Below the pieces are notes generated by a model, which saw only the letters and a program-made list of their open reading frames with translations, made no database searches and was not told the DNA's origin. DNA of 64,000 nt from Terriglobia bacterium (GTDB taxonomy: Bacteria > Acidobacteriota > Terriglobia > Terriglobales > Acidobacteriaceae), in assembly GCA_032252755.1 (NCBI GenBank), contig JAVUPY010000067.1, positions 62,001-126,000 on the forward strand, written 5' to 3'. Made by a program: the position numbers and the translations under genes. Shown in pieces: positions 11,101 through 29,240 of this stretch; the first letter of the stretch is position 1, and the number at the start of each line of letters is the position of its first letter.

Positions 11101-11611
11101 CGGATGACGATAGAGTCAATCCCGGCGGAAGAGCTGTTCCCGCACCCCACGTGTAGGGGTGTTTGCCACCCGTGGCAGTCAACGAGGTGCTATATCCAGC
11201 CCCCAAGACCGCGTTGGCGAGCGCCGTGCTCGTAATCGACAAAGGAGAGACAACCTTCACATGACTCGTGTTGGACTTAATGCTGCTTCTCGGATCGTTC
11301 ACGTATACAGTCGCGGTGGTAGGGTGGGCAACATCAGTAGAACTGATTCTGGCTATCAACAAGTTCGGCGAGACGAAGGTCGTTGCTTTTGTAACGCCGT
11401 CCCAGACAACTTGGCTTTCGGGAATAAAGTTCTGACCTTGAATTCTTAACGTAATATTCGTAGCCACGTGCGCTGTATTGGGTGAAACTGCGAAAATTTG
11501 GGGATTAGTGCCACTGGGACCTGCCGCCGAGACATTTCCGCCACACGCGACGAAACAAAGAATGAGAGTTACGAGCGATCCGGTTATGAGGAGCCGTTTA
11601 CCCAATCCCAT
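8102..11611 (-). CDS. large surface lipoprotein: IPT domain, five Ig-like repeats, unknown hydrolase-like C-terminal domain
   Basis: This is a 1169-aa exported protein. The N-terminus is a lipoprotein signal (basic KR, hydrophobic core, lipobox FVAC with Cys23). Residues ~34-120 look like an IPT/TIG domain (FAVSPNTAHVATNITLRIQG). Residues ~125-575 hold five He_PIG-type Ig repeats of about 90 residues, each with a form of SGTPTxxGxxSF after PAGLTLSSxG. Residues ~580-1169 are homologous to the whole mature 640-aa neighbour, including GLYRGVWVDE near 857. Ig arrays usually act as stalks, so I infer a surface-anchored effector domain held away from the membrane. A hairpin covers the ribosome-binding site, and a strong terminator follows. 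Confidence 0.82.
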   Translation of the reverse strand: MGLGKRLLITGSLVTLILCFVACGGNVSAAGPSGTNPQIFAVSPNTAHVATNITLRIQGQNFIPESQVVWDGVTKATTFVSPNLLIARISSTDVAHPTTATVYVNDPRSSIKSNTSHVKVVSPLSITSTALANAVLGAGYSTSLTATGGKHPYTWGAGTALPPGLTLSSSGALSGTPTQAGSYSFVATLRDNSNPSLTTSATVSLNVVSGASTLSATSQTLPGATTGTPYSAALTLSGGQSPYTWSASTSMPAGLTLSSAGVVSGTPTAAGTFGFNAVVKDSSSPAQSSSAAYKLTVTTAAAPLIVATSSLPSGTSGTSYSTTLSASGGMSPYTWSATTALPAGLTLNSNGVLSGTPSTSGTFSLGFKVTDTASPAQTANATLSLNIASAPSAPLSISTTSVPNATSGQGYNVTLMATGGSTPYTWSQTGLPAGLSMSSGGVISGTPTSSGTFSFTAKVTDTSSTTQTSSKALSITVAAAAPTNPLSITTSALPGGTVGSNYSATVQATGGTGAYTWNVTSGALPSGVTLSATTGQLSGTPGTAAQYNFTLQVTDSASPANTSSKSYSVTIANSSASSGTSNGIWMTAGVAPALAGEIRHFIAHSDAYGVKWSASGDGGCGVFAQTPTPPTTTEAYFNTTGCPVGTVTITATSISNTTKYASYPIEIVSSLPYPVGNPLNGSRLYQSSILYSALNSWANASTTNYGWWVIDHVDAGANNQQLAPVVKALAPDFDYGAYMLWETQITEFSTSHPDTFVASMINYCNNTLHTDPENAFYHYYSDTTIKLPNLGVPECSGQNLTIPGWGGGSASQRSQSRAQLCVYDSRRYVMNHSDSSCYQPFVKYRYDALNSTGLYRGVWVDEADTTPTSYYDVLVGKNPCPTSGCTKFQPPIAGTGAIAELGNQTYSQLQGSVSYINGLNSLASSMHNANNSDFMSFGNAAQTLTLGTEKWMKSIKGVYFENGYMNPGHVGDYAGVYWNYIDKMIDDGIFVATSQNREGVPTTNNFTVGNYRSGVERMNMWYLGGYWILSRNGLLAIEPANTFVGDNSGGDFTKRYWDAIGYDIGRPIASRDTVDCGTSDKRCLANTGTDSNGKGYRLWRRDYSKGIVLIAVPANGYDFLYDGTAYVSVGKNCGGSGDGTCHILYQDGTKGPAVDGVNIHNAEALVLVP

Positions 11612-12766: not shown

Positions 12767-15700
12767 ATGGGCCACTCTCAATCTGCCGGTGCGGGCGGGA
12801 CTGTTTACACCGGGCTCATCGACGCGACTCAGTCCGCGCCGGAAGCCATTGCCTTGCTTGGCCCGGAAAATCTTCCCGCAACCTACGAGGACGTTTCGCA
12901 ACAAGTTAGGAGAGTCGCCGGATCGCTCACGTCTTTGGGAATTAACGTGGGCGACAAGGTTGCTACCGTTGTGCCCGACTCGCCAGAAATGGCGACCCTC
13001 TTTCTCGGCTGCGCTTCCGTCGCAACCTGCGCTCCTTTGAATCCGCGTTATCGCTCCAGCGATTTCGAGTTCTATCTTTCTGATCTGAAGCCCAAACTAG
13101 TTGTCGTTGACTCCGATTTGGATTCTCCGGCTCGCGACATCGCAAAATCGCTTCGCCTTCGAATGGTCGAGTTGCGTCGAATCTCGGGAGCCAAGGCTGG
13201 CTATTTTGATCTAGAATCCGCCGATTCCACGGCGGAAATTAGGCTGGCCGAAGCCCACGATATCGCGCTTGTGTTGCACACGTCCGGCACCACCTCCCGC
13301 CCTAAGATGGTGCCTATCTCGCACTCGAACCTCGTGGCGTCGGCAGCGAACATAAGCCATTCTCTGGCACTCACTTCCGCCGATCGCTGCCTGAACACCA
13401 TGCCGCTCTTCCACATCCACGGTTTAGTAGGTGCGGTCTTGTCCTCGTTGTCCGCGGGTGGAAGCGTGATCTGCATGCCCGGTTTTCAGGCCAGGCAATT
13501 CTTTGAGTGGATGAAGGACCTTCATCCAACCTGGTATTCATCAGTGCCGACGATGCACCAAGCGATTCTTGCGAGAGCGGAGGAAAACGAGGAGGTCATC
13601 CGAGGTAACCGGTTGCGCTTCATCCGTTCGTGTTCGTCGGCGCTTTCTCCGTCCGTTATGGCCGAGTTGGAGAAGACGTTCGGTGTTCCGGTCATTGAGG
13701 CCTATGGGATGACGGAGGCGTCGCACCAGATGGCGAGCAATCCTCTGCCCCCGCGAGTGCGAAAGCCGGGCTCGGTGGGAGTTGCGACCGGCACTGAACT
13801 TGGGATCATGGATGGCGCAGGGCATTTGCTACCCTCGATGCAAACCGGCGAAATCGTGGTGCGAGGGCCGAGCGTCACTCTGGGGTACGAGGGCAATCCC
13901 GAGGCGAATCGGAAATCATTCGTCGATGGATGGTTTCGGACGGGCGATCAGGGCTATATGGATTCGGATGGGTATCTGTTTCTGACCGGCCGGATCAAGG
14001 AACTGATCAATCGGGGCGGAGAGAAGATATCGCCCCGAGAGATCGATGATTTGCTGTTATCTCATCCGGCGGTTGCGCAGGCGCTCGCGTTTGCTATTCC
14101 TGATGAAAAGCTCGGCGAGGACGTTGGTGCGGCTGTGGTTTTGAAGCCGGGCGAGAGCGTAACGGAGTTGGAGATACGCGAATACCTGGCTGGACTGACC
14201 GCAGATTTCAAGGTGCCGCGGCGTATTGTTTTTCTGGACAAGCTTCCGACAGGCGCTACAGGGAAACCGCAGCGGATTGGGCTGGCGGGCGTACTAGGAC
14301 TGGATAATCAGGCGGTGGATCGGGGATCGGCTGAATTCGTTGCTCCCCGCAATGAGACTGAGGCGGCATTAGCAGAGTTGTGGAGTGATGTGCTCGGAAG
14401 AAAGCAATCTTCCGTTAATGAGAATTTCTTTGAGGTCGGTGGCGATTCGATTCTGGCCGCGCAGTTAATCGGGCGAATTCGGCGGCGATTCGGAGTCGAA
14501 GTTTCCATGCCGCGCCTGTTTGAGCTTCCGACGATCTGTGCGTTGTCGGAATGGCTTGGAGAGCACCAGTCGAATTCGCATCTTCCGACCATGGTGAGGG
14601 TTGACCGTTCGGGAGACATCCCACTTTCGTTCCCGCAACGGCGGATGTGGTTTGCGTCTCAATATGCGGGTGACAGTCCTGTCTACAACCGTGCATTTGC
14701 AATTCGGCTCAGGGGGCCGCTGGACGTATTCCGGATACAGCAAAGCCTAACGGCGGTAGTGGATCGTCATGAGAGCTTGCGAACGAATTACAAATTGCGC
14801 GATGGGGTTCCGGTGCAGACGATCGGGAACTTCCGCCCGGTCGCGATTTCGATCGTGGACCTTCAGCGGCACAGTGAAGAGCATCGGATTGCGGCCGCAG
14901 TCGATTGGGCTCGGGGAGAAGTGCGCAAGCCCTTTGCTCTCGCTTCAGACCTGATGTTGCGGGCTGGATTATCGAAGCTTGGACCCGAGGATCACGTTCT
15001 GCTGTGCGTCACACATCACATCGCGTTTGATGCGACATCACAAGCGCCATTCCTGAACGACCTTGCCGAAGCCTACCGGGGAATCACCAAAGAGTTGCCG
15101 GGGCTTGACTACCCCGATTATGCCTCCTGGCAGGTGACGCGTGGCTCCGAGCACTTCGACGAGATGCTGGAATGGTGGAAACAGGAACTGCGGGGCATCC
15201 CGTCGGTTCACCGTTTTCCGACGGACTTCAATCGGCCTTCGCGACAGAGTTATCGTGGTGGAAATGTCGGGTTGGTGCTGGATTCTGAGACCTCGGCGAA
15301 GGTGTCGGTCATAGCAAACGAACTTGGCGCCACGCCATTCATGGTGCTGCTGGCTGCATTCAGCGCCCTCACGTCACGATATTGCGATTCCAACGAATGC
15401 GTTGTGGGGACGCCAACCTCGGGACGACTCACTGCCGAATCAGAAGAAATGGTCGGGCTTTTCGTTAATCTGGTGGTACTTCGTACCGGGGTCGAGACCG
15501 GTTGCAATTTCAAGGAACTGGTGACGAATGTCCGTACGACCACGCTGAGAGCGCTCGATCATCAGGATTTTCCATTCGAAAAACTGGTCGAAGGAATGGC
15601 TCCGGAAAGAAGTCTTGCGCATTCCCCGCTGTTTCAGATCATGTTCGAATACCGCAATCATCCTTCGGCGGAGTTGAGGATTGAGGGGATCGCAGCGGAA

Positions 15701-18700
15701 CCGTTCGAGTTCGAATCCGGATATTCGCAATACGACTTGCACTTCGATATCCGGCCAGGCAAGAGCGGAATGAGATTCTTGCTTCACTACAACCAGGACC
15801 TCTTCCGGCGTGAATCAGCGGAACGCATCCTGAGCGATTTCCGGACGATTCTGAGCGGTGCGGTGAAGAATCCGGCGATGAAGATAGAGGAGTTGGAGTG
15901 TGTCGGGGTTGGGGCAAGACAGGCATCAGTCAAGACGACTCCGCAGGCTGTGGAAGAAAACGGTCCGGCGGAACGGGGGATACCACGACAGAAACGGTCG
16001 CCCGGTGAAGCGTCAAAGTTGTCGTTTGCCCAGGAACGGCTTTGGTTCCTGCACCAACTTGAACCGGATAACGCGACGTATAACATTCCCGTCTGGCTGA
16101 AACTAACCGGTGATATAGATGAAGACGCTCTCCGGAAGTCCTTTGAGTTTGTGCTGGACAGGCATGAGAGTCTGCGCACGGTCTTCCGGTCGCGGGATGG
16201 CGCGCCGGTTCAGATGGTTCTGCCGGTAGAAAGGTATGAGTTCCCAATCGTCGATGCCGCAAACCTCTCGCACTCGGAACTGCACGATGCCGCCCGGCGA
16301 GAAATACTCCGGCCTTTCGACCTGGCGAACGATGCGATGATTCGTGCCGCACTCTATCGGGTGCGTCCGGACACGCACTACATGCTGATTGTTGTGCACC
16401 ACATTGCGGCTGACGGGTGGTCGATGCCAATCCTTCAGCAGGAGCTTAGTGCCGCCTACCGCGCTTATGTTCGTGGCTTGGAGCCGAATCTTCCGCGACT
16501 TCCGGTTCAGTATGCGGATTTCGCTGCATGGCAACGGGAATTTCTGAGTGGCAAAGTCTTCGAACAGCAGCTCGACTTCTGGACTCGTCAGCTGAAAGGC
16601 GCACCCAATAATCCGCTGATGCTTACCGATCGTCCGCGCGGCGCCCGGCAAACGTATGGTGGTGAACGGTACATAGTTCCGATGAGCGCGGAATTCGAAG
16701 CGGAACTAAACCGCTTCAACCGCAAGGAGCGTGTCACGCTGTTCATGACCTTGCTTGCTGGGCTCGAAACAGTGCTCCATCGCAGGACGGGACAAACCGA
16801 TATTGTGGTGGGCGCGCCAATCGCGAATCGGACGAGGGTAGATCTCGAGCCGCTGATTGGGTTCTTTGTGAATACGCTGGCATTGCGCTGCGATTTCTCG
16901 GATGATCCCACTTTTCGGGAGGTTCTGAATCGGATTCGCGAAAAGACGCTTGAGGCGTACCAGAACCAGGATCTGCCATTTGAGAAGCTGGTGCAGGCTC
17001 TGCAACCAGAACGCAGTTTGAGTCATACGCCGGTATTCCAGGTGATTCTTGCAGTTCAGAACACACCGGATGAGAACACGGATTTCGGGGCACTGTCGGT
17101 TGTGCAGGAGGACATCGACGAGCGCCTGGCGAAATTCGATATGAGCATCTCCGTTGAGTTCAAGCCTCGGCTGCGGATTGTCTACAACGTCAATACTGAC
17201 TTGTTTGAGCACGAAACCGTGGTTCGCTTTGCGGAGCATTTTGAAAATTTCGTACGTGCCGCAATGGCTTCTCCGGACGTGAGAGTTTCGCAGCTCGAAA
17301 TGATATCTACGGTAGAGCGTGAGCAGTTGCTGCGCTGGGGGCAGAACTCTCGTCCGTATCCGGATAAGGCGGTTCACGAGATTTTCGAGGCGGTCGTGGA
17401 GCGCTCTCCTGATTCGATAGCTATCGTCGCGGGTGACCGGCAGTACTGTTACAGGGAATTGGATGAACGCGCCAACCAACTCGCCAGGGCGCTTCATGCC
17501 GTGGGAATCGGTCCGGGAAAGCGCGTTGGACTTCTGATGCGCCGATCGTTCGAGACAATCGCATCCATGCTGTCAGTCCTGAAGTTGGGTGCTGCCTACG
17601 TGCCCCTCGACAAGGACTACCCAAGGCAGCGAATCGAGTTTATTTCGCGCGATTGCGAACTCGCGGCGGTGCTCACCACGCCGGACATGATCGATCGGGT
17701 TCCAGCGGATCGACGAATCGTTCGCGCTGACGAGACGGAGAGCAATTCCAAGGAGGCGCTCGATATTCGGGTTGGTCCCGATGAAGCCGCATACGTCATC
17801 TACACTTCGGGATCGACGGGGCAGCCGAAAGGGGTGGAGGTTCCACACCGGGGAATTGTTCGACTCGTATTTGATCAGGAGTATGCGCAATTCGGGCCGT
17901 CGGAAACGACGCTGCAACTGGCACCGCTTTCATTTGACGCTTCGACGCTGGAGATATGGGCCGCGTTACTGCACGGAGGCACCTGCGTTCTGTTCTCGGG
18001 GTCGCGCATAGATGCCGAGCAGGTCGGAGCAACCGTCAAGGCGCACGGTGTGTCCACTTTATGGCTTACCTCGTCACTATTTAACATCATCATCGATGAA
18101 TCACTGGAAGCTCTGGCTCCCGTGCGTCAACTTCTTGCCGGTGGAGAAGCCCTGTCTGTGCCGCATGTCCGCAAGGCTTTCAAGACGCTGAAACAGACGC
18201 AATTGATCAACGGATATGGGCCAACGGAAAACACGACCTTCTCCTGCTGCCACCGGATCAGTGCGGAAACCCTTAAGACGCGATCCAGTATTCCGATTGG
18301 GAAACCTATCGCAAACACCGACGCACTCATTCTGAATGGGAGAATGGAGATGGTCCCGATCGGAGTTCCCGGAGAACTCTATTTGGGGGGCGATGGCCTT
18401 GCGATCGGATACGTGAATCGTCCTGAACTGACGGCACAGAAGTTCGTTTCCGTAAACCTGGGTGGGCGAACGCGCAGGCTTTACCGCACCGGAGACATTT
18501 GCCGATGGCTGAATGACGGTACGATCGAATTCCTTGGACGCAGCGACGACCAGGTGAAAATCCGGGGATTCCGGATCGAGTTGGGAGAGATCGAAACGGC
18601 AATCGCCGGCAATGAAGGTGTCAACTCCGTCGCGGTAGTCGTAATCGGTGAAGGTGCTAATAAGCGACTGGTTGCGTACGTGGTTGCAAAGAATGGGCGT

Positions 18701-19936
18701 GAGGTAACCGGTCCAAAGCTGCGCGAGTACCTGCGAGAGAGTTTGCCGGACTACATGATCCCGGCGCAGTACGTTTTTCTGTCCGAACTGCCGATTTCGA
18801 AGAATGGAAAAATCGACAAAGCTGCTCTTCCGGAGCCGAGCGGACAACTCGTCAAAGACGCAATTGCTGCTCCGCACGATGCCGTCGAGGCGAAGCTTAA
18901 GCCAATTTGGGAGAATGTGCTGGGGATTGCTCCCATAGGGGTCGACCAGGACTTTTTCGAATTAGGCGGTCACTCACTTTTGGCTACCAAGCTTTTGGCT
19001 CGGATCGAGCGAATGTTCGGTGTCAAGCTGCCGATCGCGTCAATTTTCCAATATTCGACCATTGAAGAACTCGCGCCCCTTGTTCGGAATCAGTCGGCGC
19101 TCGCAAAACCGGGCGGTGCTTCACAGCCACCTCTATTGTGGGTCGGTGGGGGGACCTTCCTGCGGCCGATTGCGAAATGGCTGCAACCCGATCGTGCGCT
19201 CATTTCGGTGTCTCTTGAACCGGAGGAATGGGCAGCGTTGAAACCACCGTTCCGACTTGAAGCAGTGGCGGCGGTCCTGGCAGGACGGATTCTGAAAAAT
19301 CACCCGACCGGACCCTATCATCTGGCAGGCTGGTGTTACGAGGGACTGCTCGCTTACGAAACCGCGCAGCAATTACGAGCGCAGGGGGCCGACGTCGGAC
19401 TGCTCGTGCTCGTGGATGCCGCAACCCCGTCGAGTAGGAAGAGCTTTTCGAAAGTGGGAGAGGTGGTTGCACGGATTCAGCGCGAGACATTCCACTTGTC
19501 GCGATTGGTGCGCAGAAGCCCATCGAAATGGCCGGCATACCTGCGGGAACGTTTTCAGGAATTTTCGAAGCGGCTGACCAGGAACAAGTGGCAGAGCGCA
19601 TATGAAAATGAAGCGCGGTCGGAATCGTCAGGGGGCGAGGAGGGCAATCGAATTCTGCACCTGTCGATCGTTGATCACGTTCTCAAGCCGTATGATGGGC
19701 CGTTGCTGTTCTTCCAGGCAGCAGAACGGCCAGTCGGCAAGTATTGGGATCTTGCGTGGGAATGGAAAGACCTGACAGAGGGCCGTTGCGACTGCAGGGA
19801 GATTCCCGGGGACCACGTTACGCTCTTAAAGCCGCCGAATATCGATCTGCTTGCAGAGCACCTCAAGACGGCGTTGGATGCTGCTTCGGATTCCACGTCA
19901 AGAAAACGGCGTACGACCGACGTGACCTACGCATGA
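12767..19936 (+). CDS. nonribosomal peptide synthetase: AL-T-C-C-A-T-TE
   Basis: This is a 2389-aa single-protein assembly line. (1) Residues 20-515 are an acyl-CoA-synthetase-like ligase (HTSGTTSRPK near 170, YGMTEASHQM, closing Lys in TGATGKPQRI). (2) A carrier has FEVGGDSI near 556. (3) Condensation domain 1 has HHIAFDA near 749, Ala replacing the motif's last Gly. (4) Condensation domain 2 has HHIAADG near 1210. (5) The adenylation domain runs 1535-2000 (YTSGSTGQPKG, NGYGPTENT, NGKIDKAAL). My hand alignment gives the pocket D-A-L-W-L-G-G-T-F, closest to valine-type codes. (6) A carrier has FELGGHSLL near 2063. (7) A thioesterase has GWCYEG near 2187 with Cys in the nucleophile position and a later GDHVTLL. 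The likely product is an acylated aliphatic amino acid or derivative. The PPTase gene is coupled directly behind it. Confidence 0.9.
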   Translation: MGHSQSAGAGGTVYTGLIDATQSAPEAIALLGPENLPATYEDVSQQVRRVAGSLTSLGINVGDKVATVVPDSPEMATLFLGCASVATCAPLNPRYRSSDFEFYLSDLKPKLVVVDSDLDSPARDIAKSLRLRMVELRRISGAKAGYFDLESADSTAEIRLAEAHDIALVLHTSGTTSRPKMVPISHSNLVASAANISHSLALTSADRCLNTMPLFHIHGLVGAVLSSLSAGGSVICMPGFQARQFFEWMKDLHPTWYSSVPTMHQAILARAEENEEVIRGNRLRFIRSCSSALSPSVMAELEKTFGVPVIEAYGMTEASHQMASNPLPPRVRKPGSVGVATGTELGIMDGAGHLLPSMQTGEIVVRGPSVTLGYEGNPEANRKSFVDGWFRTGDQGYMDSDGYLFLTGRIKELINRGGEKISPREIDDLLLSHPAVAQALAFAIPDEKLGEDVGAAVVLKPGESVTELEIREYLAGLTADFKVPRRIVFLDKLPTGATGKPQRIGLAGVLGLDNQAVDRGSAEFVAPRNETEAALAELWSDVLGRKQSSVNENFFEVGGDSILAAQLIGRIRRRFGVEVSMPRLFELPTICALSEWLGEHQSNSHLPTMVRVDRSGDIPLSFPQRRMWFASQYAGDSPVYNRAFAIRLRGPLDVFRIQQSLTAVVDRHESLRTNYKLRDGVPVQTIGNFRPVAISIVDLQRHSEEHRIAAAVDWARGEVRKPFALASDLMLRAGLSKLGPEDHVLLCVTHHIAFDATSQAPFLNDLAEAYRGITKELPGLDYPDYASWQVTRGSEHFDEMLEWWKQELRGIPSVHRFPTDFNRPSRQSYRGGNVGLVLDSETSAKVSVIANELGATPFMVLLAAFSALTSRYCDSNECVVGTPTSGRLTAESEEMVGLFVNLVVLRTGVETGCNFKELVTNVRTTTLRALDHQDFPFEKLVEGMAPERSLAHSPLFQIMFEYRNHPSAELRIEGIAAEPFEFESGYSQYDLHFDIRPGKSGMRFLLHYNQDLFRRESAERILSDFRTILSGAVKNPAMKIEELECVGVGARQASVKTTPQAVEENGPAERGIPRQKRSPGEASKLSFAQERLWFLHQLEPDNATYNIPVWLKLTGDIDEDALRKSFEFVLDRHESLRTVFRSRDGAPVQMVLPVERYEFPIVDAANLSHSELHDAARREILRPFDLANDAMIRAALYRVRPDTHYMLIVVHHIAADGWSMPILQQELSAAYRAYVRGLEPNLPRLPVQYADFAAWQREFLSGKVFEQQLDFWTRQLKGAPNNPLMLTDRPRGARQTYGGERYIVPMSAEFEAELNRFNRKERVTLFMTLLAGLETVLHRRTGQTDIVVGAPIANRTRVDLEPLIGFFVNTLALRCDFSDDPTFREVLNRIREKTLEAYQNQDLPFEKLVQALQPERSLSHTPVFQVILAVQNTPDENTDFGALSVVQEDIDERLAKFDMSISVEFKPRLRIVYNVNTDLFEHETVVRFAEHFENFVRAAMASPDVRVSQLEMISTVEREQLLRWGQNSRPYPDKAVHEIFEAVVERSPDSIAIVAGDRQYCYRELDERANQLARALHAVGIGPGKRVGLLMRRSFETIASMLSVLKLGAAYVPLDKDYPRQRIEFISRDCELAAVLTTPDMIDRVPADRRIVRADETESNSKEALDIRVGPDEAAYVIYTSGSTGQPKGVEVPHRGIVRLVFDQEYAQFGPSETTLQLAPLSFDASTLEIWAALLHGGTCVLFSGSRIDAEQVGATVKAHGVSTLWLTSSLFNIIIDESLEALAPVRQLLAGGEALSVPHVRKAFKTLKQTQLINGYGPTENTTFSCCHRISAETLKTRSSIPIGKPIANTDALILNGRMEMVPIGVPGELYLGGDGLAIGYVNRPELTAQKFVSVNLGGRTRRLYRTGDICRWLNDGTIEFLGRSDDQVKIRGFRIELGEIETAIAGNEGVNSVAVVVIGEGANKRLVAYVVAKNGREVTGPKLREYLRESLPDYMIPAQYVFLSELPISKNGKIDKAALPEPSGQLVKDAIAAPHDAVEAKLKPIWENVLGIAPIGVDQDFFELGGHSLLATKLLARIERMFGVKLPIASIFQYSTIEELAPLVRNQSALAKPGGASQPPLLWVGGGTFLRPIAKWLQPDRALISVSLEPEEWAALKPPFRLEAVAAVLAGRILKNHPTGPYHLAGWCYEGLLAYETAQQLRAQGADVGLLVLVDAATPSSRKSFSKVGEVVARIQRETFHLSRLVRRSPSKWPAYLRERFQEFSKRLTRNKWQSAYENEARSESSGGEEGNRILHLSIVDHVLKPYDGPLLFFQAAERPVGKYWDLAWEWKDLTEGRCDCREIPGDHVTLLKPPNIDLLAEHLKTALDAASDSTSRKRRTTDVTYA

Positions 19937-20658
19937 AACCCATTTGGCAGGCAGCGCCGGCGGACCTCGAGGTTCGGCAGGACGAGGCTCACGTCTGGTT
20001 CTGCAATTTCTCGGAGGTAAGTGATTTCGCGGACGGTTCCCAAGTTCTTTCCGAAGCAGAACAGAACCGCGCTGATCGATTCAAGACGGAAGACTCAAAA
20101 TTAACCTATATTGGATCGCACATCTTCCTGCGGCGGGTGCTCGGATCGTGTCTGCCAATCCCAGCTTCGGCAGTGCGGTTTTCCGTCTCGACGGGTGGAA
20201 AGCCGTGCCTCGATCAGCTCATTCACGCAACTGATCTCCAATTCAACCTGAGCCATTCGCAGCGGAGCGCAGCCTGCATTATTGCCCGCGGCACAGCCGT
20301 TGGAATTGACCTGGAACGCTCTGATCCCGAGCTGTGCGATGACGATACTGCCAGACAGGTGTTTGGACAGGAAGAGCTGCACTATCTCAACCAGCGCGGG
20401 CAGACAGAACGAACAGCGGCATTCTTTCGGGGATGGACAAAAAAGGAAGCCTACGCGAAGTGCAAGGGAACTGGACTCTCGTCCGACTTGGCCGCCTTAA
20501 CTATAGGTTGCCACGACGCTGAGTCGGTGTTCGGCGGTGTTTCTTTGCTTTCGTTCCGATTTCCAAACGGATACGCAGGGGCTCTCGCGATCGAGGGACC
20601 GTCTGTGCCTGTGAGTTATTGGACTATGTCGCCGCAACGCTTGATCAATTTGACATGA
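19933..20658 (+). CDS. 4'-phosphopantetheinyl transferase, Sfp type
   Basis: This is a 241-aa enzyme that transfers phosphopantetheine from CoA to the carrier-domain serines of the adjacent NRPS. Signatures are FNLSHSQRSAACI near residue 104, the metal-binding GIDLERS near 122, and WTKKEAYAKCKGTGL near 173. The reading frame extends upstream, but the ATG at 19933 overlaps the NRPS stop as ATGA, which settles the start and indicates coupled translation. The stop codon lies next to the terminator of the convergent PEP-CTERM gene. Confidence 0.92.
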   Translation: MKPIWQAAPADLEVRQDEAHVWFCNFSEVSDFADGSQVLSEAEQNRADRFKTEDSKLTYIGSHIFLRRVLGSCLPIPASAVRFSVSTGGKPCLDQLIHATDLQFNLSHSQRSAACIIARGTAVGIDLERSDPELCDDDTARQVFGQEELHYLNQRGQTERTAAFFRGWTKKEAYAKCKGTGLSSDLAALTIGCHDAESVFGGVSLLSFRFPNGYAGALAIEGPSVPVSYWTMSPQRLINLT

Positions 20659-20702: not shown

Positions 20703-21323
20703 TCAGATCAGAAAGCGACGGCGAATCGCGCCCGCTGCGCCGAGGATACCAGTTCCAAGAAGGAACAGGCTACCCGGTTCAGGAACGAAGCCAACTAGAG
20801 GCTGAGGTCCATCAGTAATAAACTGCCCATCTGAGTTGACCGGCAGATAGAACAGGGCATTGGAGGCGTTGTAACCACCTTCAATCGCTGCGAGTGCGTC
20901 AGCAATGTCCTGATCAACATCCGCCTGATTGAACTGACCCTGGAAGGTAGTGCCGGTCAGTCCCGCGACCTGCCAAATTGCTACCTGCAAGTCGATATCG
21001 CCCGGATGCTGCACCAATTGCCAAGCCAGCCAAGCAATCTCGGTGTACGACTGCGTAGTCTGGTTGAAGGGACCAGCCACTGGCACATCGGCAATTGTGT
21101 AAACGTTCGCCGTCCAACTCTCGCCGATGGAGATCTCGTTCTGGTCAGACCAGCAAACGAGCCACTGATTCCCTGAGGGATACGCCGGATTAGACTGCTG
21201 GACGTTGAACTTGTATGGACCGGCCTGCCCATAAGGTGCAGAAACGGTCGTAATCTGAGCCGTATCAGCAAAGGCCCAGCTTGCAGCACATATTAACAAC
21301 AAAACCACCAAGAGCTTCTTCAT
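20703..21323 (-). CDS. PEP-CTERM surface protein with thioester-domain-like motifs
   Basis: This 206-aa exported protein has a signal peptide (MKKLLVVLLLICAASWAFA) and ends in a textbook PEP-CTERM sorting tag: VPEPGS, a hydrophobic span, then RRR at residues 180-206. It would be cleaved and anchored by an exosortase not present in this window. Cys57 (WLVCWSD) and Gln113 in DLQVAIWQV, separated by an AWLAWQL helix, match the layout of thioester (TQXA) adhesin domains, where Cys and Gln form an internal thioester. A longer reading frame exists upstream, but the ATG at 21323 has GGGGAAGG about 8 nt before it. A sigma-54-like promoter and a terminator flank the gene. Confidence 0.88.
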   Translation of the reverse strand: MKKLLVVLLLICAASWAFADTAQITTVSAPYGQAGPYKFNVQQSNPAYPSGNQWLVCWSDQNEISIGESWTANVYTIADVPVAGPFNQTTQSYTEIAWLAWQLVQHPGDIDLQVAIWQVAGLTGTTFQGQFNQADVDQDIADALAAIEGGYNASNALFYLPVNSDGQFITDGPQPLVGFVPEPGSLFLLGTGILGAAGAIRRRFLI

Positions 21324-21826: not shown

Positions 21827-22184
21827 CAAACCTCGTACAGCTTACTTGAATGCGGTCACGTGCCTCCGGTTCGGAGGCAAGATTGCCGACCGGATGGCTG
21901 TCGCGTCATTTCATCGCATAAAGCGTCACAAGCGAACCGTTACCGCTGGGTGGGAATTGGGTTACGGAAGTCACTGCGCCCGTGTGCCCCCACCTGTAGC
22001 CGCGCACGAAGAAATCGAGGTAGAGTTGATCGTTAGAGAGTACACCGATAGGTTGCTTGGGTATCTTGCACGTGGTAGTAATCGACGAAGGAAAGTAAAA
22101 CAGATTCACGACGAAGTAATGCAGGCAATACGTCTCCTCTGATGTATCGTGGGAAATCCGGGTTACGGGTTCGAGCAAAAATAC
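21827..22184 (+). other. intergenic stretch with no recognisable gene
   Basis: This is about 360 bp between the TonB relic and the flippase. Short open frames exist on both strands, but none has a ribosome-binding site, family motif or coupling to a neighbour. It probably belongs to the same decayed segment. Confidence 0.5.
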
Positions 22185-23678
22185 ATGATTGAAGAGTTAC
22201 GCCGATTACTGAAGCACTCGGGCATTTATGGCGTCAGCGTAGTCCTATCGAAAATGGTGGGATTCCTGATGATTCCCATCTACACCCGCTGCCTTGCGCC
22301 GAGCGACTACGGAGTGCTCGAACTCCTGGACTTGTTAATGTTTCTCACCGGCATTTTTGCCTCGATGGGCATCTATTCCGCCGTTTTCAAGTTTTATTCA
22401 GCGTATGAAAGTCAGCAGGACAAGAGAGAGGTAATTTCCAGTGCTCTTCTCTACTACTGCGCGATTTCGGGAGCACTTTCTGTCTGCATGATTCTGGCGG
22501 CCAAGCCCTTAGCGTATTTCGTTTTCGGTGGGGCGCAGTATGTGGTTTTCATCCGGATTACCGCGTTTACCTTGTTCTTTTCGAGCTTGGCGGATGTGCC
22601 GCAAGCTTACTGGCGAGTTCAAGAGAAGACTGTACTTTTCGCCGGTCTAGGGGTGATGAAGACTTTCGTTTCCATTCTTTCCCTCATCACAGCACTAGTA
22701 ATCCTGAAATTGGGACTGCGGGGTGCCGTGTACGCCAACATGGTGACTGCGGCGATCTTTGGGATACCGTTGTTTGGCTGGACTTTGGCAAAGATGCCGA
22801 GAAGGGTTGTTCCGGCCAAATTGAAGGAAATGTTGAAATATGGCGCACCCTTGATTGTGCAGAGTCTTGGCTCTTTCGTATTGGTTTACTCCGACCGCTT
22901 CTTCCTTCGGCACTACACAGATCTCAATGAGGTTGGTGTTTATTCACTTGGATATAAGCTTGCCGGTATTGTCAGCGTTCTAGTTACAGGCCCGTTCAGC
23001 TTCGCATGGCAGTGGCAACAGTTTGAGATCGCAAAGAGAGAAGACGGGAAGCGCATTCAGGCGCGCATACAAACATACCAGTTGCTGGTTTCTCTGCTGG
23101 TTGGATTGGGCGTATCGGTGTTGGCTAAGGACATTCTCTCAGTAATTGCTCCGAAATCGTATTTCGGGGCCGATACTGTTGTGCCACTTATTGTGCTCAG
23201 CTATATTTTCGCGAACATGCGAATTGTGGTAGCCAGCGGTGTTCTAGTGCAGCGGACCACAGAACAGATGGCGCTAATTTACAGTTTGTCGGCAGCATCG
23301 AATCTAGCTCTTAACTGGTGGCTTATACCCCGGTTTGGAATGATGGGGGCTGCCATTGCTACGGCCGGATCGTACGGATTCAGCTTGCTTTTGGCATTTA
23401 TTGTGGCGCAGAGGCTCTACTATGTTCCGTACGAATACAAGCGGAATTTTCTCTTATTAGGCATTTCATTTGCCACCTACTATCTCAGTACTTTGATTCG
23501 GTTCTCCCTGATATTTTCGGTGGTGGCCAAATGTCTCTTGTTGGGGGCCTTCGTTATTTTGGCGATGTGCGTGCTGGATTCGAAAGAACGAAAGATGGGA
23601 GTCGAATTGATGCGGGCGGCAGTTTATAGGGTTCGGGGGAAATTGAAAGCTGGTGGGGAACGAGTACTTCAGCCGTGA
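22185..23678 (+). CDS. polysaccharide flippase, Wzx/MurJ-like (MOP superfamily)
   Basis: This is a 497-aa integral membrane protein with about 12-14 hydrophobic segments over its whole length, starting with VVLSKMVGFLMIPIYTRCLA near residue 17. The SKxVGFxxIPIYTRxL-x-P-x-DYG pattern is the hallmark of O-antigen/EPS flippases, which move lipid-linked repeat units across the inner membrane. An upstream GTG at 22149 adds 12 residues, but ATG 22185 (MIEELRRLLKHSG) fits the family better. It is the intact counterpart of the relic at 2570. The following kinase-like gene starts 30 bp later. Confidence 0.88.
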   Translation: MIEELRRLLKHSGIYGVSVVLSKMVGFLMIPIYTRCLAPSDYGVLELLDLLMFLTGIFASMGIYSAVFKFYSAYESQQDKREVISSALLYYCAISGALSVCMILAAKPLAYFVFGGAQYVVFIRITAFTLFFSSLADVPQAYWRVQEKTVLFAGLGVMKTFVSILSLITALVILKLGLRGAVYANMVTAAIFGIPLFGWTLAKMPRRVVPAKLKEMLKYGAPLIVQSLGSFVLVYSDRFFLRHYTDLNEVGVYSLGYKLAGIVSVLVTGPFSFAWQWQQFEIAKREDGKRIQARIQTYQLLVSLLVGLGVSVLAKDILSVIAPKSYFGADTVVPLIVLSYIFANMRIVVASGVLVQRTTEQMALIYSLSAASNLALNWWLIPRFGMMGAAIATAGSYGFSLLLAFIVAQRLYYVPYEYKRNFLLLGISFATYYLSTLIRFSLIFSVVAKCLLLGAFVILAMCVLDSKERKMGVELMRAAVYRVRGKLKAGGERVLQP

Positions 23679-23708
23679 CCTGGGATCATCCTGCGAACGC
23701 GCACTAGT

Positions 23709-25313
23709 ATGGCAACTGATGTACATCTCGAGGCTGCAGTTGAGGATCCGGCCCAATCCCAGTGGTTGAACTTCCTGCCGAACCTTCAGGGACAGAGGGT
23801 GCTCGTTGCTGGCAAATGCCCGGCGGACGTGATCCGGGCACTTCGAGCCCGCAGCGGAATGCCGGTAACTTCCATTGGTGAGGAAAATGCGGTCCTTGGC
23901 TGTGAGCTTATGTCCCTGCCGGTTCGTCCTCCCGTTTCCGACAAGTTTTCTTTTGCAGTAATTGATGGGATCGCCGGTGTTTCGGAGTTTGATTTAGCAA
24001 TTGACCAGGTCATTCCTATTTTCCAATCAGATGTCGGCAAAATGGTGGTATGCCTGGCTGCGGGATGGAGTAAATTGCGGCTCCGGCGGTACGCTCGAAG
24101 CAAAGTTCGCGATCTTGGTTTTGCAAGCGCCGCTTATTATTGCGATCCCGACGTAGATAAGCCGGAGCGAATCATTTCGCTCTGCGCCGGAGCAGGGCCA
24201 GCTCTTTCCATACTATGTCCTCGACCCGATTCCGTCTTTGCGCGTGTTAAGTGGGCTTTCAAAGCAATGTTTTACCGGGTCGCGGGCTGCCTCAATCCAA
24301 GGTTCGGGTTGGTTTTGATCGCCCAAAAAGAGGTGAACGCTGTCAATCAGGGCAGCATGGCACAGCTGGCCACGGAATTGGTGAATCTTTCGGCGAAGGA
24401 GGCCACCGTTGTTTCTGTTTCGCAGCACTACAATGGTCGTCAGTTCTTGTTTGTTTACGATTCTTCTGCGAAATCGAAACTCCGGGCAGTAGCTAAATTT
24501 GCGAATAGAAGATATCCGCGCTTCGCTTTGTCGAAGAGAGAGTATCGTGCGTTATCCTTGGCGGATTCTGTTTCTAGCAGGATGCCAATGGATTCCAGGT
24601 TCGCACCAACGGTTCTGTTTTCAGAATGTAGCAGCGAATCAACGGCAATCGTTCTGAGTGCGGCTGACGGACAGTCCATTGCTCAGCTATGCAGTAGTCG
24701 AGAAATGAGCAGAAATTCTGAATTGGCAGGACAGGTGCTGGCGAAAGGCGTTCGGCTGCTTCGTCGTATTCAGAAAGAGATTTCGCTGGATCCCGCTAGC
24801 ATCGACTTCCGCTGTGATCACCGCTATCTTGAAAACTACCTTCAGCTCCCAATACTGATGTCTCCGAAAGTGGACGAAGATGTGCAACATGGAGATTTTA
24901 CTGTGGAACACGTCTTCTTTGATCCGGCTAAGAATCGCTGGACCGTACTGGATTGGGAATGGCTGGGTAGAGGATATCCCTTTCTTATGGATGTCTTTTC
25001 GTTCTTGCGCTCGGTACGTTTCTTGCAACCGAGAAACCAGGGAGCGCACTGGAAAGATGTCTCTTTCTTGTCTCTCCAAGACACATTCTTTCGGGAAAAC
25101 TGGTTCAGTGAACTGAGCCGAGCGATTGTATCGGAATACATTGCGGCACGCGGATTATCTCACCTTGACCGCTATTCTTGTTTTCTTCAGTACCTTCTCT
25201 TCCGCTGTAACAAAGTAAGACTGGACGAAGTGTTCTGGCCTCACCAACTTAGAGATTGGGAGAGGCTCACTGAATTTGCCGTAACCAATAGAAATCAATT
25301 TCAGCTTTGGTGA
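23709..25313 (+). CDS. two-domain protein: degenerate methyltransferase-like N-terminus plus phosphotransferase (APH)-like C-terminus
   Basis: This 534-aa protein has no single recognised family over its full length. Residues ~25-210 resemble a Rossmann methyltransferase that has lost the glycine-rich SAM loop (RVLVAGKCPADVIRAL). Residues ~220-530 resemble aminoglycoside-phosphotransferase-like kinases: catalytic HGD in VQHGDFTVEHVFF near 393 and the metal-binding Asp in VLDWEWLGRGYPF near 415. The Asn that normally follows HGDxxx is His here, so activity may be altered. It lies between the flippase and a methyltransferase with 30-bp and 3-bp gaps, so all three probably form one operon acting on the surface polymer or its lipid carrier. 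Confidence 0.7.
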   Translation: MATDVHLEAAVEDPAQSQWLNFLPNLQGQRVLVAGKCPADVIRALRARSGMPVTSIGEENAVLGCELMSLPVRPPVSDKFSFAVIDGIAGVSEFDLAIDQVIPIFQSDVGKMVVCLAAGWSKLRLRRYARSKVRDLGFASAAYYCDPDVDKPERIISLCAGAGPALSILCPRPDSVFARVKWAFKAMFYRVAGCLNPRFGLVLIAQKEVNAVNQGSMAQLATELVNLSAKEATVVSVSQHYNGRQFLFVYDSSAKSKLRAVAKFANRRYPRFALSKREYRALSLADSVSSRMPMDSRFAPTVLFSECSSESTAIVLSAADGQSIAQLCSSREMSRNSELAGQVLAKGVRLLRRIQKEISLDPASIDFRCDHRYLENYLQLPILMSPKVDEDVQHGDFTVEHVFFDPAKNRWTVLDWEWLGRGYPFLMDVFSFLRSVRFLQPRNQGAHWKDVSFLSLQDTFFRENWFSELSRAIVSEYIAARGLSHLDRYSCFLQYLLFRCNKVRLDEVFWPHQLRDWERLTEFAVTNRNQFQLW

Positions 25314-27150: not shown

Positions 27151-27804
27151 GTGGACGATATTTTCCAGCAATTGCGGCAAGCGATTATTGACGGCATGCC
27201 TTCTATGGCGAAGGTAGCGGCGCAGAGGGCGCTGGCGGACGGCGTGGAGCCGATGCTGGCGCTCAACACGGCCTGTGTGCCGGCGATGGACTACGTCGGC
27301 GAACGTTTTGGCTGCCGGGAGATGTTCCTGCCTGACGTGCTCGCATCTAGTGAGGCGATGAAGGCCGCCGTTGCCGTGCTCGAGCCCGAGATGAGGAAAC
27401 GGGGCGATCGGCGCGAGGTTCATGGCCGGGTCATTTTGGGCACTGTAAGGGGCGACATCCATGAGATTGGAAAAGGATTGGTCGGCATCCTTCTGGGGGC
27501 CAGCGGTTTTGAAGTGCACGACCTTGGCGTTGGCGTTTCGCCAGAGGTATTTGCGGCCAAAGCGCGCGAACTGAAGGCCGATATCGTCGGCGTTTCGGCG
27601 CTGCTCACCACGACGATGAATCTGCAGCGCGACGTTGTGCAGCGTTTCGATCGCGAGGGGCTGCGGCCGGCGGTCAAGGTGATCGTCGGTGGCGCACCCG
27701 TGTCGCAGAAGTGGGCGACGGAGATCGGAGCTGATGGCTATGGCAAAGACGCGATGAGCGCGGTCGCACTGGCGCGCAACCTGATGAAAAAGGATCGACC
27801 GTGA
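27151..27804 (+). CDS. corrinoid (B12-binding) protein of a methyltransferase system, MttC/MtaC-like
   Basis: This 217-aa protein carries the cobalamin that shuttles the methyl group between two methyltransferases. Residues ~1-85 form the helical cap (ALADGVEPMLALNTACVPAM, then a GERF-x5-FLPDVLASSEAM segment). Residues ~90-217 are the B12-binding Rossmann domain with the cobalt-ligand motif D-x-H-x-x-G in GDIHEIGKGLVG near 111, then VSALLTTTM and VIVGGAPV. The GTG start is backed by GAGGAGA 7 nt upstream. The next gene's GTG overlaps its stop (GTGA), so corrinoid protein and methyltransferase are co-translated. Confidence 0.9.
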   Translation: MDDIFQQLRQAIIDGMPSMAKVAAQRALADGVEPMLALNTACVPAMDYVGERFGCREMFLPDVLASSEAMKAAVAVLEPEMRKRGDRREVHGRVILGTVRGDIHEIGKGLVGILLGASGFEVHDLGVGVSPEVFAAKARELKADIVGVSALLTTTMNLQRDVVQRFDREGLRPAVKVIVGGAPVSQKWATEIGADGYGKDAMSAVALARNLMKKDRP

Positions 27805-29240
27805 GACCGAAACTGGAATTGCTCGATCGCGATCTCGTCCGGCGCATCCTGGAAGAAGCATTTCAACTGATCGACGAGGTTGGCGTAAGAGTGCAGACGC
27901 CCGAAGTGATAGAAATGCTGCGCTCTGCCGGAGCCCGCATCGCCGAGGGACGCGCGCACATCCCCACCAGCCTGGCACAGAAAGCGCTGGCGTCGGCGCC
28001 GCGCGAATTTCATCTGTATGACCGAAGCGGTCGCGCTGCCGTTCATTACGGCGGCGATGATGTGCATTTCGATCCCGGCTCATCGTGCCTCAATGTCCTC
28101 GACCCCGATACGTTACAGGCACGACCCGCGCAAGCCGCAGACCTCGTTCGCCTCGTGCAAATCACGGAGATGCTGCCGCAGTACGCGGCGCAGTCCACCG
28201 CGGTCGTTTGTGGCGATGTGCCGCAACAACTCGGGGACTTGTACCGCCTGTTCCTGGTGCTCTGGTATTCGGACAAGCCGGTGGTGACCGGCGCCTTCAG
28301 CGCCAAAGGCGTGCAGCCGATGATCGATCTTCTGGCGGTCGATGCAGGAGGGCGAGCAGCGCTCGCGGCAAAGCCCAGGGCAGTGTTTGACGTCTGTCCA
28401 TCACCGCCTCTGAACTGGTCGGAGTTCGGGGCGGAGAACCTTGTGGAGCTGGCGCGAGCGGGCGTTCCGACAGAAGTCGTTTCCATGCCCCTGGCAGGTG
28501 TGGCCGCTCCGGTCACGCTGGCAGGAGCGGTGGTGCAGCACGCGGCCGAGAGCATCAGCGGCATCGTGATCCATCAGCTTGCGGCTGCGGGTGCACCGAT
28601 CGTGTGGGGTGGCGCCGCGGCCATCTTCGACATGTGCTCCGCGACCACTCCCATGGGCGCGATCGAGACCGCCATGATCGACCTCGCCTGTGCGCAAGTT
28701 GGCAAGCATCTCGGTTTGCCAACTCATACGTATCTGGTCGCCAGCGATTCGAAGCTGGTCGACGCACAAGCGGGCATGGAGAGCGGAATCTCGGCCATGC
28801 TCGGCGCACTCGCCGGCGTCAATATGATTTCTGGGGCGGGCATGCTGGACTTCCTTGCGTGCCATTCGGTCGAAAAACTGGTGATTGATGCCGAGGCGAT
28901 CGCCTCGGCGCAGCGCCTGCTGGAAGGCATCGCGGTGCGCACTGAAACGCTCGCGACTGCAATGGCAGCGGCTGCGGCTATATCCGGGGATTACCTGAGC
29001 CTTCCAGAAACGCGCCGGCTGTTCCGCAGTGAACAGCATTTTCCGTCGAGTGTCATCGATCGGAGTTCCGGTACCCAAGAGGAACCGGGCGATACCTTCC
29101 GCCGCGCTCGCATTCGTGTTGCCGAATTGCTGGCGTCGTATCAACGGCGACAGCTACCGACCGAGCTCGAAGAGAGGCTGCGTGCGGTGGTTGAGGAGCG
29201 TGGCCGGGAGTTTGGTCTCGAGCAACTGCCCGGCGTTTAA
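27801..29240 (+). CDS. MttB-family methyltransferase lacking pyrrolysine (MtgB-like)
   Basis: This 479-aa TIM-barrel protein of the trimethylamine methyltransferase superfamily passes a methyl group from an amine or betaine-type substrate to the corrinoid protein encoded just upstream. The length equals that of full family members. The frame has no internal TAG, so it belongs to the non-pyrrolysine branch, whose characterised members act on glycine betaine, proline betaine or carnitine. Visible family segments include HYGGDDVHFDPGSSCLNVLD near 76, SPPLNWSEFGAENLVELARA near 195 and GAGMLDFLACHSVEKLVID near 350. The start GTG overlaps the corrinoid gene stop by 4 bp. The substrate is not determined. 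Confidence 0.88.
   Translation: MRPKLELLDRDLVRRILEEAFQLIDEVGVRVQTPEVIEMLRSAGARIAEGRAHIPTSLAQKALASAPREFHLYDRSGRAAVHYGGDDVHFDPGSSCLNVLDPDTLQARPAQAADLVRLVQITEMLPQYAAQSTAVVCGDVPQQLGDLYRLFLVLWYSDKPVVTGAFSAKGVQPMIDLLAVDAGGRAALAAKPRAVFDVCPSPPLNWSEFGAENLVELARAGVPTEVVSMPLAGVAAPVTLAGAVVQHAAESISGIVIHQLAAAGAPIVWGGAAAIFDMCSATTPMGAIETAMIDLACAQVGKHLGLPTHTYLVASDSKLVDAQAGMESGISAMLGALAGVNMISGAGMLDFLACHSVEKLVIDAEAIASAQRLLEGIAVRTETLATAMAAAAAISGDYLSLPETRRLFRSEQHFPSSVIDRSSGTQEEPGDTFRRARIRVAELLASYQRRQLPTELEERLRAVVEERGREFGLEQLPGV

Follow-up and report, generated by a model that had tools for sequence, protein, structure and literature searches.

A PEP-CTERM protein family of Acidobacteriota predicted to carry a thioester-type domain

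Thioester domains (TEDs) were described in 2015 as reported exclusively in Gram-positive bacteria (PMC4450167). A small open reading frame (ORF) in the stretch of DNA analysed here (64,000 nucleotides from a Terriglobia bacterium, referred to below as the window) raises the question of whether such a domain is also found in a Gram-negative lineage, attached to a PEP-CTERM sorting signal, and of which residues would form its internal bond. A sequence-only reading of the window had proposed that the encoded protein may carry an internal thioester between Cys57 and Gln113, in the layout of thioester adhesin domains.

The reading frame, its sorting signal and its family

The features on which that proposal was built (Cys57, an AWLAWQL helix, the motif DLQVAIWQV with Gln113, and a PEP-CTERM tail) are all present in the 206-aa translation, in which a single domain of some 160 aa lies between a signal peptide and the PEP-CTERM tail, as follows:

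20703-21323, minus strand: ORF of the candidate PEP-CTERM thioester-domain protein, 206 aa, ATG at 21323, stop codon included (translation and homologues)
21267-21323, minus strand: putative signal peptide, about residues 1-19, ending in ..SWAFA (read from the sequence)
21153-21155, minus strand: codon of Cys57, the proposed thioester cysteine (Cys in 138 of 139 aligned domains)
20985-20987, minus strand: codon of Gln113 in the helix motif LQVAIW, counterpart of TQxxPhiW, and the bond partner of the sequence-only reading (Gln in 71 of 140)
20802-20804, minus strand: codon of Gln174 in the motif PQPLVG, the proposed thioester glutamine (Gln in 133 of 134; register with solved TEDs)
20790-21266, minus strand: predicted thioester-type domain, residues 20-178 (AlphaFold2 model and fold match to TEDs)
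20715-20786, minus strand: PEP-CTERM sorting signal, residues 180-203 (PF07589 and TIGR02595, above cut-off)

The tail scores 25.7 bits against Pfam PF07589 (curated cut-off 20.7) and 23 bits against NCBIfam TIGR02595 (curated cut-off 16). Two exosortase genes (PF09721; best E 5.5e-75) are present in the same genome, the better scoring of them on the same contig at a distance of 37.6 kb from the ORF, and TIGR02595 detects three PEP-CTERM tails genome-wide. With a C-terminal signal of its own and an exosortase in its genome, the protein belongs among the exosortase-sorted PEP-CTERM proteins. A sigma-54 promoter pattern occurs 32 times in the window, against 30.8 expected, and not at all between the PEP-CTERM ORF and the next gene upstream.

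Judged by sequence comparison, the ORF is not a chance reading frame, since 29 homologues (26-44% identical) can be aligned with it, and of 398 genomes of the same taxonomic family 112 contain a match to a profile built on its domain only. A search with the protein in 200 genomes of that family gave matches in 77, many of them via the tail only, and in a sample of the phylum the domain-only profile matched in 16 of 297 genomes, all 16 from the same taxonomic family. A pattern search of contigs returned a further set of 47 loci (L141-L187) under the titles Acidobacteria, Acidobacteriales, Acidobacteriaceae, Terriglobales, Terriglobia or Candidatus Sulfotelmatobacter; because the two short patterns employed come from a single subfamily, the restriction of these loci to Acidobacteriota does not show that the family is absent elsewhere. 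One homologue, L023 (genome G040, same taxonomic family), is identical to L141 over 160 residues, and gave no tblastn match among plasmids. A contig scan using the window protein alone as query returned 154 stretches, none of which holds a relative. The only group of genes found at all 47 loci is the family itself, and the largest other groups of neighbours resemble antisense readings or neighbours common to related genomes. One locus, L101 (G575:C1:1443249-1446790), contains three genes of the family in tandem.

No curated model in Pfam or NCBIfam was found to describe the domain, either in the window protein or in the family members. Among 30 members scanned against Pfam, 28 matched PEP-CTERM and two VPDSG-CTERM, alongside ten single weak families; the full-protein PEP-CTERM models of NCBIfam gave matches below cut-off only, mostly to the tail, and the best match in PHROGs had an E-value of 0.39. 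The floc_PepA model (NF033554) extends over the domain in L010, L007, L016, L018 and others, below its cut-off, with a best family match at residues 17-199 of L010 (49.3 of 80 bits, E 5.4e-13). When run against 297 genomes it matched in 60, with three proteins over the cut-off (L225-L227), and the proteins at L225-L253 that it matches in part are Acidobacteriota PEP-CTERM proteins of varied make-up. In the reverse comparison, with 64 tail-bearing ORFs from the floc_PepA loci, our family profile recovered only the known members L228, L230, L236 and L246, and did not match L225-L227. Given partial matches in 60 of 297 genomes and the failure of the family profile to find L225-L227, we do not read these matches as homology and reject floc_PepA as a sign of shared ancestry of the domain; the sub-threshold matches say little. 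What the window protein shares with known PEP-CTERM/exosortase proteins (TIGR02595, PF07589, floc_PepA NF033554) is the tail, above the tail models' cut-offs, and the exosortase genes in the same genome, whereas against the full-protein NCBIfam models, floc_PepA included, the window family stays below cut-off.

The PEP-CTERM pattern is found in 120 of 135 tail-bearing members, and a simple pattern identifies a hydrophobic N-terminus in 131 of the 135. Thirteen of the 15 remaining tails are of a PEGG/AEGG type (L081, L084, L087-L090, L092-L094, L096, L098, L109 and L118), in which the variant motif is followed by a hydrophobic stretch and then by Arg/Lys; the other two are a PDAG variant (L134) and a PEP tail cut by the end of the locus (L214). 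Two PEGG members compared with NCBIfam returned nothing at E <= 10, and from its sequence the PEGG/AEGG tail is possibly an undescribed sorting signal. The domain match ends close to the PEP motif, at a median distance of 3 residues.

The predicted fold and the glutamine of the proposed bond

The window domain, modelled with AlphaFold2 from a domain alignment of 30 rows, reached a pLDDT of 90.9 and a pTM of 0.88. In a Foldseek search of the PDB, ranks 1-7 were all occupied by chains of TED-bearing entries, the best being 5a0g_B (E 2.3e-4, probability 1.00, TM-score 0.44); only two matches fell at E <= 0.001, with TM-scores near 0.44. In VIA-align the first 13 entries all carry a TED (Z 9.1-6.8) and the next falls to Z 3.0; 5a0g heads the list (Z 9.1, 143 residues, rmsd 3.7), and among the 13 is 5dcq (FNE), whose title names an adhesin only and which we take to be TED-bearing. 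The model of L023, built from the same 30-row family alignment re-cut to end one residue after the conserved glutamine, had a pLDDT of 94.1 and a pTM of 0.89, and VIA-align again returned TED-bearing entries at ranks 1-11 (Z 9.7-6.8, next Z 3.5); with this shortened model Foldseek did not rank TEDs first, 6fwv_B appearing at rank 5 with E 0.47. By VIA-align, the TED fold, which combines a small beta-barrel part with a central region of three core helices, is the best PDB match of both predicted structures, with a clear gap to the entries that follow. On the strength of a confident model, the window domain is predicted to have a TED-type fold, and the AlphaFold2 model and the PDB fold matches thus bear out the thioester-domain fold suggested earlier.

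At the level of sequence, no significant similarity of the family to TEDs was found. The two Pfam TED models, PF08341 and PF20610, gave no match at E <= 1 in any of 30 members (30/30), and a known TED run as a control matched both. Across 149 genomes of the phylum PF08341 matched in none, a count that is not evidence of absence, the controls being equally silent. Profile-profile comparison with 11 plasmid-borne class II TEDs gave E-values of 0.07-0.13, which are not significant, and aligned 13 columns, covering the cysteine strand only. No TED chain was found among PDB sequences at E <= 10 with the family profile, the top hits of which (a designed repeat protein and antibody chains) we read as chance.

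With class I TEDs (SfbI-TED 5a0l, CpTIE-TED 5a0g, PnTIE-TED 5a0n and Cpa 2xi9/4c0z) the window domain shares its predicted fold over nearly its whole length, as well as a cysteine on the N-terminal strand, a QxxPhiW motif on the central helix, a glutamine on the C-terminal strand, and the lack of the beta-sandwich insert of class II. It differs from them in its low identity (8-12% in the structural alignments), in the failure of the Pfam TED models to recognise it, and in its setting, as a domain of about 160 aa in Acidobacteriota rather than in Gram-positives, sorted by PEP-CTERM instead of LPXTG and lacking a stalk of isopeptide/ester domains. Of class II TEDs, the upper lobe of BaTIE (6fwv), SaTIE (6fx6) and EfmTIE86 (6fwy) can be aligned with it (Z 8.8, 7.6 and 6.8, respectively), and the same Cys/Gln logic applies throughout the class, including TIEpLS20 of plasmid pLS20. 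In contrast to class II, the window domain has no inserted beta-sandwich, and the profile comparison that failed to reach significance was with TIEpLS20 and ten plasmid relatives. A TIE protein has an N-terminal TED, an isopeptide/ester stalk and an LPXTG signal; the window protein has a single domain and a PEP-CTERM tail, and is not one. Complement C3, alpha-2-macroglobulin and TEP proteins also form an internal Cys-Gln thioester (CxEQ) that reacts with nucleophiles. Their cysteine and glutamine are three residues apart, whereas here 117 residues separate the proposed pair, the fold is different, and the CxEQ motif is absent from the window protein; archaeal CxEQ proteins exist (PMC8416519).

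Which glutamine could pair with Cys57 is a question on which the TED literature is informative. According to two papers, the thioester Cys and Gln are the only universally conserved TED residues, the glutamine lies in a weak PhiQ-zeta-PhiPhi motif on the C-terminal strand, and the TQxxPhiW motif of the helix does not provide the bond partner, both its Gln and its Trp being non-essential (PMC4450167, PMC6194298). The published thioester glutamines are Gln267 in 5a0g, Gln261 in 5a0l and Gln247 in 5a0n (PMC4450167). In the window model residue 156 is Gln174, and the last residue, 161 (Gln + 5), is paired by VIA-align with 272, 266 and 252 of 5a0g, 5a0l and 5a0n, respectively; in the L023 model residue 156 (Gln + 1) pairs with 268, 262 and 248. 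The two models agree on the register, and therefore the family glutamine falls on Gln267, Gln261 and Gln247, provided that the last residues are aligned free of gaps, an assumption that the L023 model reduces to a single step. For Cpa, the alignments end at 580 in the window model (581 in 2xid, against 580 in the other entries) and at 576 in the L023 model, which is consistent with Gln575, presumably the Cpa thioester glutamine. The models disagree by one residue on 6fwv (240 minus 5 versus 237 minus 1). At the other end, residue 1 of the window model lies on residue 100 of 5a0g, placing Cys39 of the model (Cys57 of the protein) on Cys138 without gaps; the match is exact only for 5a0g, small gaps being needed for 5a0l, 5a0n and the L023 model, and we take the cysteine alignment as consistency only. 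By the register of the predicted structures, Gln174 is the counterpart of the TED thioester glutamine.

Conservation within the family points to the same residue. A profile from 117 domains, run on the fetched family loci, gave 215 hits that reduce to 140 distinct domains; the loci left out of the count (L002, L003, L031, L188-L200, L221 and L222) hold unrelated PEP-CTERM proteins, exosortases and plasmid TEDs. The set is diverse, with a median pairwise identity of 27% and 128, 73 and 33 clusters at 90, 60 and 40% identity. Wherever a residue is aligned, position 57 is Cys in 138 of 139 domains and position 174 is Gln in 133 of 134, and Trp117 is Trp in all 140. The Gln113 column, in comparison, holds Gln in 71 domains, Asn in 54, Ser in 13, and Ala and Thr in one each (n = 140). 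Ranked by retention as Gln, the Gln/Asn positions of the window protein are headed by Gln174 (99%), followed by Gln113 (51%) and a next position at 32%. Six domains have a gap at 174: L111 and L173 run off their contig ends there, L123 has YGQE further on, L095 and L048 carry an unaligned GGQSF, and the fragment L099 diverges towards its end. An initial alignment of 30 sequences had Cys in 30 of 30 at position 57, this being the sole cysteine of the domain itself in 28 (L007 and L016 have others), and Gln, Asn and Ser in 12, 17 and one at position 113.

The sole domain without Cys57, which has Gly instead, is also the sole domain without Gln174, which is replaced by Glu. This domain belongs to one copy of the L101 array, and the reading frame, helix motif and PEP-CTERM tail of that copy are all intact. 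Joint loss is what a bond between two residues predicts, and it is here a single event seen in sequence. All 13 PEGG/AEGG members have Ser, Thr or Ala at 113 and keep both Cys57 and the glutamine of the C-terminal motif; one of these three residues is found at 113 in 15 domains altogether, the two outside the PEGG/AEGG group being the PEP-tailed L006 and the fragment L099. From the 13 of 13 it follows that the helix residue and the anchor vary together and that the proposed bond pair does not. The family conserves the two residues that are universal in TEDs, a cysteine and a glutamine at the predicted positions of the bond; in the finer motifs the picture is mixed. The cysteine motif [YFL]C-Phi-zeta is lacking, since the window protein reads V-C-W-S, in which the two positions after the cysteine fit and the preceding one does not; in homologues the preceding residue is mostly Met, Ile or Val, with some Leu or Phe, and Asp often follows. 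A proline after Gln174 likewise departs from the described TED motif, and the helix motif has QxxPhiW (QVAIW) with Leu in place of the Thr of TQxxPhiW. The missing cysteine motif lowers the case for TED membership, with which the sequence is still compatible, and the departure is not decisive because the TED papers call only Cys and Gln universal.

Of the sequence-only reading, the fold and Cys57 stand, and Gln113 as the bond partner does not: it had itself named a lack of co-conservation as grounds for refutation, and a residue that is Gln in about half of the domains is not co-conserved with a cysteine found in all but one.

Proposed mechanism and competing explanations

The best overall explanation, and one that we regard as probable, is that the family consists of exported, exosortase-sorted proteins of TED fold, in which a thioester between Cys57 and Gln174 binds nucleophiles covalently. 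The signal peptide would export the protein and the PEP-CTERM tail would hand it to an exosortase; the side chains of Cys57 and Gln174 would condense autocatalytically, with loss of ammonia, to yield the internal thioester. Once exported, whether to the cell surface or into the exopolysaccharide matrix, the protein would meet a nucleophile that attacks this bond; a primary amine, as in lysine, a polyamine or an amino sugar, or else a hydroxyl is the most likely attacker. The target would end up covalently joined to the carbonyl of Gln174, with Cys57 freed. For this family we infer the formation of the thioester, its target, its location and its role. The likeliest function is to form a covalent link with an amine or hydroxyl belonging to the matrix, to a neighbour or to a host. 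Such chemistry is established for TEDs: that of SfbI forms its bond with one lysine of fibrinogen (PMC4450167), and efficient conjugation depends on the TED cysteine of TIEpLS20 (PMC8092201). Coupling to matrix polymers or touching cells is more likely than reaching a distant host receptor, since the stalkless domain lies within a few residues of the tail and its reach would be short. The matrix is the more natural guess, because PEP-CTERM systems have been linked to exopolysaccharide (PMC1569441) and in Aquincola, overexpression of PepA leaves less exopolymer soluble and more of it bound (PMC9850573).

A bond between Cys57 and Gln113 of the helix motif DLQVAIW retains hardly any probability. 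Gln113 sits in a TQxxPhiW-like helix, and in TEDs the glutamine of that motif makes a hydrogen bond to the backbone of the thioester cysteine, so that Gln113 is probably near Cys57; it is nevertheless replaced in about half of the domains, mostly by Asn or Ser, while Cys57 is kept, and the TED helix glutamine is not the bond partner and proved non-essential in the mutagenesis cited in that work (PMC4450167). It is on these two grounds, conservation and the published work on TEDs, that the pair is rejected, and Gln113 is probably a supporting residue. More weight, albeit still at a low probability, falls on a TED fold without a thioester, in which Cys57 and Gln174 serve packing and the protein is an ordinary matrix or structural protein of the PEP-CTERM type. 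Such an explanation would suit a family without significant sequence similarity to TEDs, and PEP-CTERM proteins can work in the matrix, as PepA of Aquincola does (PMC9850573); our family profile gave no match to PepA-type proteins. Packing alone, however, should allow Ser or Ala at position 57 and Glu or Asn at position 174 more often than is observed, whereas both residues are among the most conserved columns of a family with so low a median identity, and the sole loss affects both together.

We consider it very unlikely, if less so than the Gln113 bond, that Cys57 acts as a lone cysteine for intermolecular disulfides or thiol modification without any thioester. Its near invariance, and its being the sole domain cysteine in 28 of 30 members, would fit such a role, which nonetheless leaves the invariance of Gln174, the joint loss and the TED fold unexplained. 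A cysteine protease or a transglutaminase-like enzyme was set aside because no histidine is among the most conserved columns.

Candidate thioester domains on PEP-CTERM tails and the surroundings of the ORF

A second candidate comes from another family of the phylum. L254 (411-1112, minus strand, genome G425) is a PEP-CTERM protein with the motifs YCLD and IQLALWEV and a late NQDF. It matches the Pfam TED model PF08341 over residues 70-142 with E 0.0099 and 16.7 bits (cut-off 22), and, counted from the ends of the match, its Cys72 lies on profile position 4, as does the cysteine of TIEpLS20. The window-family profile did not match it at E <= 10, a search of 287 genomes recovered no protein but L254 itself, plasmids gave no relative, and a comparison with PDB sequences returned nothing of note. 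As one protein, below the cut-off, L254 is a hint from sequence that TEDs occur on PEP-CTERM tails.

On balance we lean slightly towards the broader proposition that a Gram-negative lineage has paired a thioester domain with the exosortase system, giving a large, stalkless, reactive family in soil Acidobacteriota, one branch of which is PEGG-tailed and without a curated match (in the two members scanned), with L254 suggesting that TEDs entered this context more than once. If so, the proteins would act as a covalent weld between a cell and its matrix, other cells, or polymers of plant, fungal or soil origin. The action of PEP-CTERM proteins in the exopolymer matrix is described as largely unknown in PMC9850573, and a TED on a PEP-CTERM tail would provide the system with a testable chemistry, a covalent bond to an extracellular nucleophile. 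Soil Acidobacteriota would also gain a candidate mechanism of irreversible attachment. The novelty is the combination of a predicted TED-like fold and its proposed bond pair with a new mode of anchoring, in proteins that the curated TED families do not cover. Among the open-access papers searched, none was found in which the terms "thioester domain" and "PEP-CTERM" occur together, and the parts available of PMC12617251 and PMC8416519 do not join an exosortase to a thioester.

Several other genes of the window were read alongside the ORF. Within 12767-20658 on the plus strand, a 2389-aa protein reads, from its sequence, as a nonribosomal peptide synthetase, and an ORF read as resembling an Sfp-type phosphopantetheinyl transferase overlaps its end and adjoins the PEP-CTERM gene. 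At 22149-25313 on the plus strand, a protein resembling polysaccharide flippases (PF01943) is encoded ahead of a 534-aa one for which Pfam gave nothing at E <= 0.001. A homologue of the trimethylamine methyltransferase MttB (PF06253, E 3.4e-85) is encoded at 27801-29240, plus strand, and several putative Ig (He_PIG) domains are recognised in a translation of 1168 aa at 8102-11611, minus strand.
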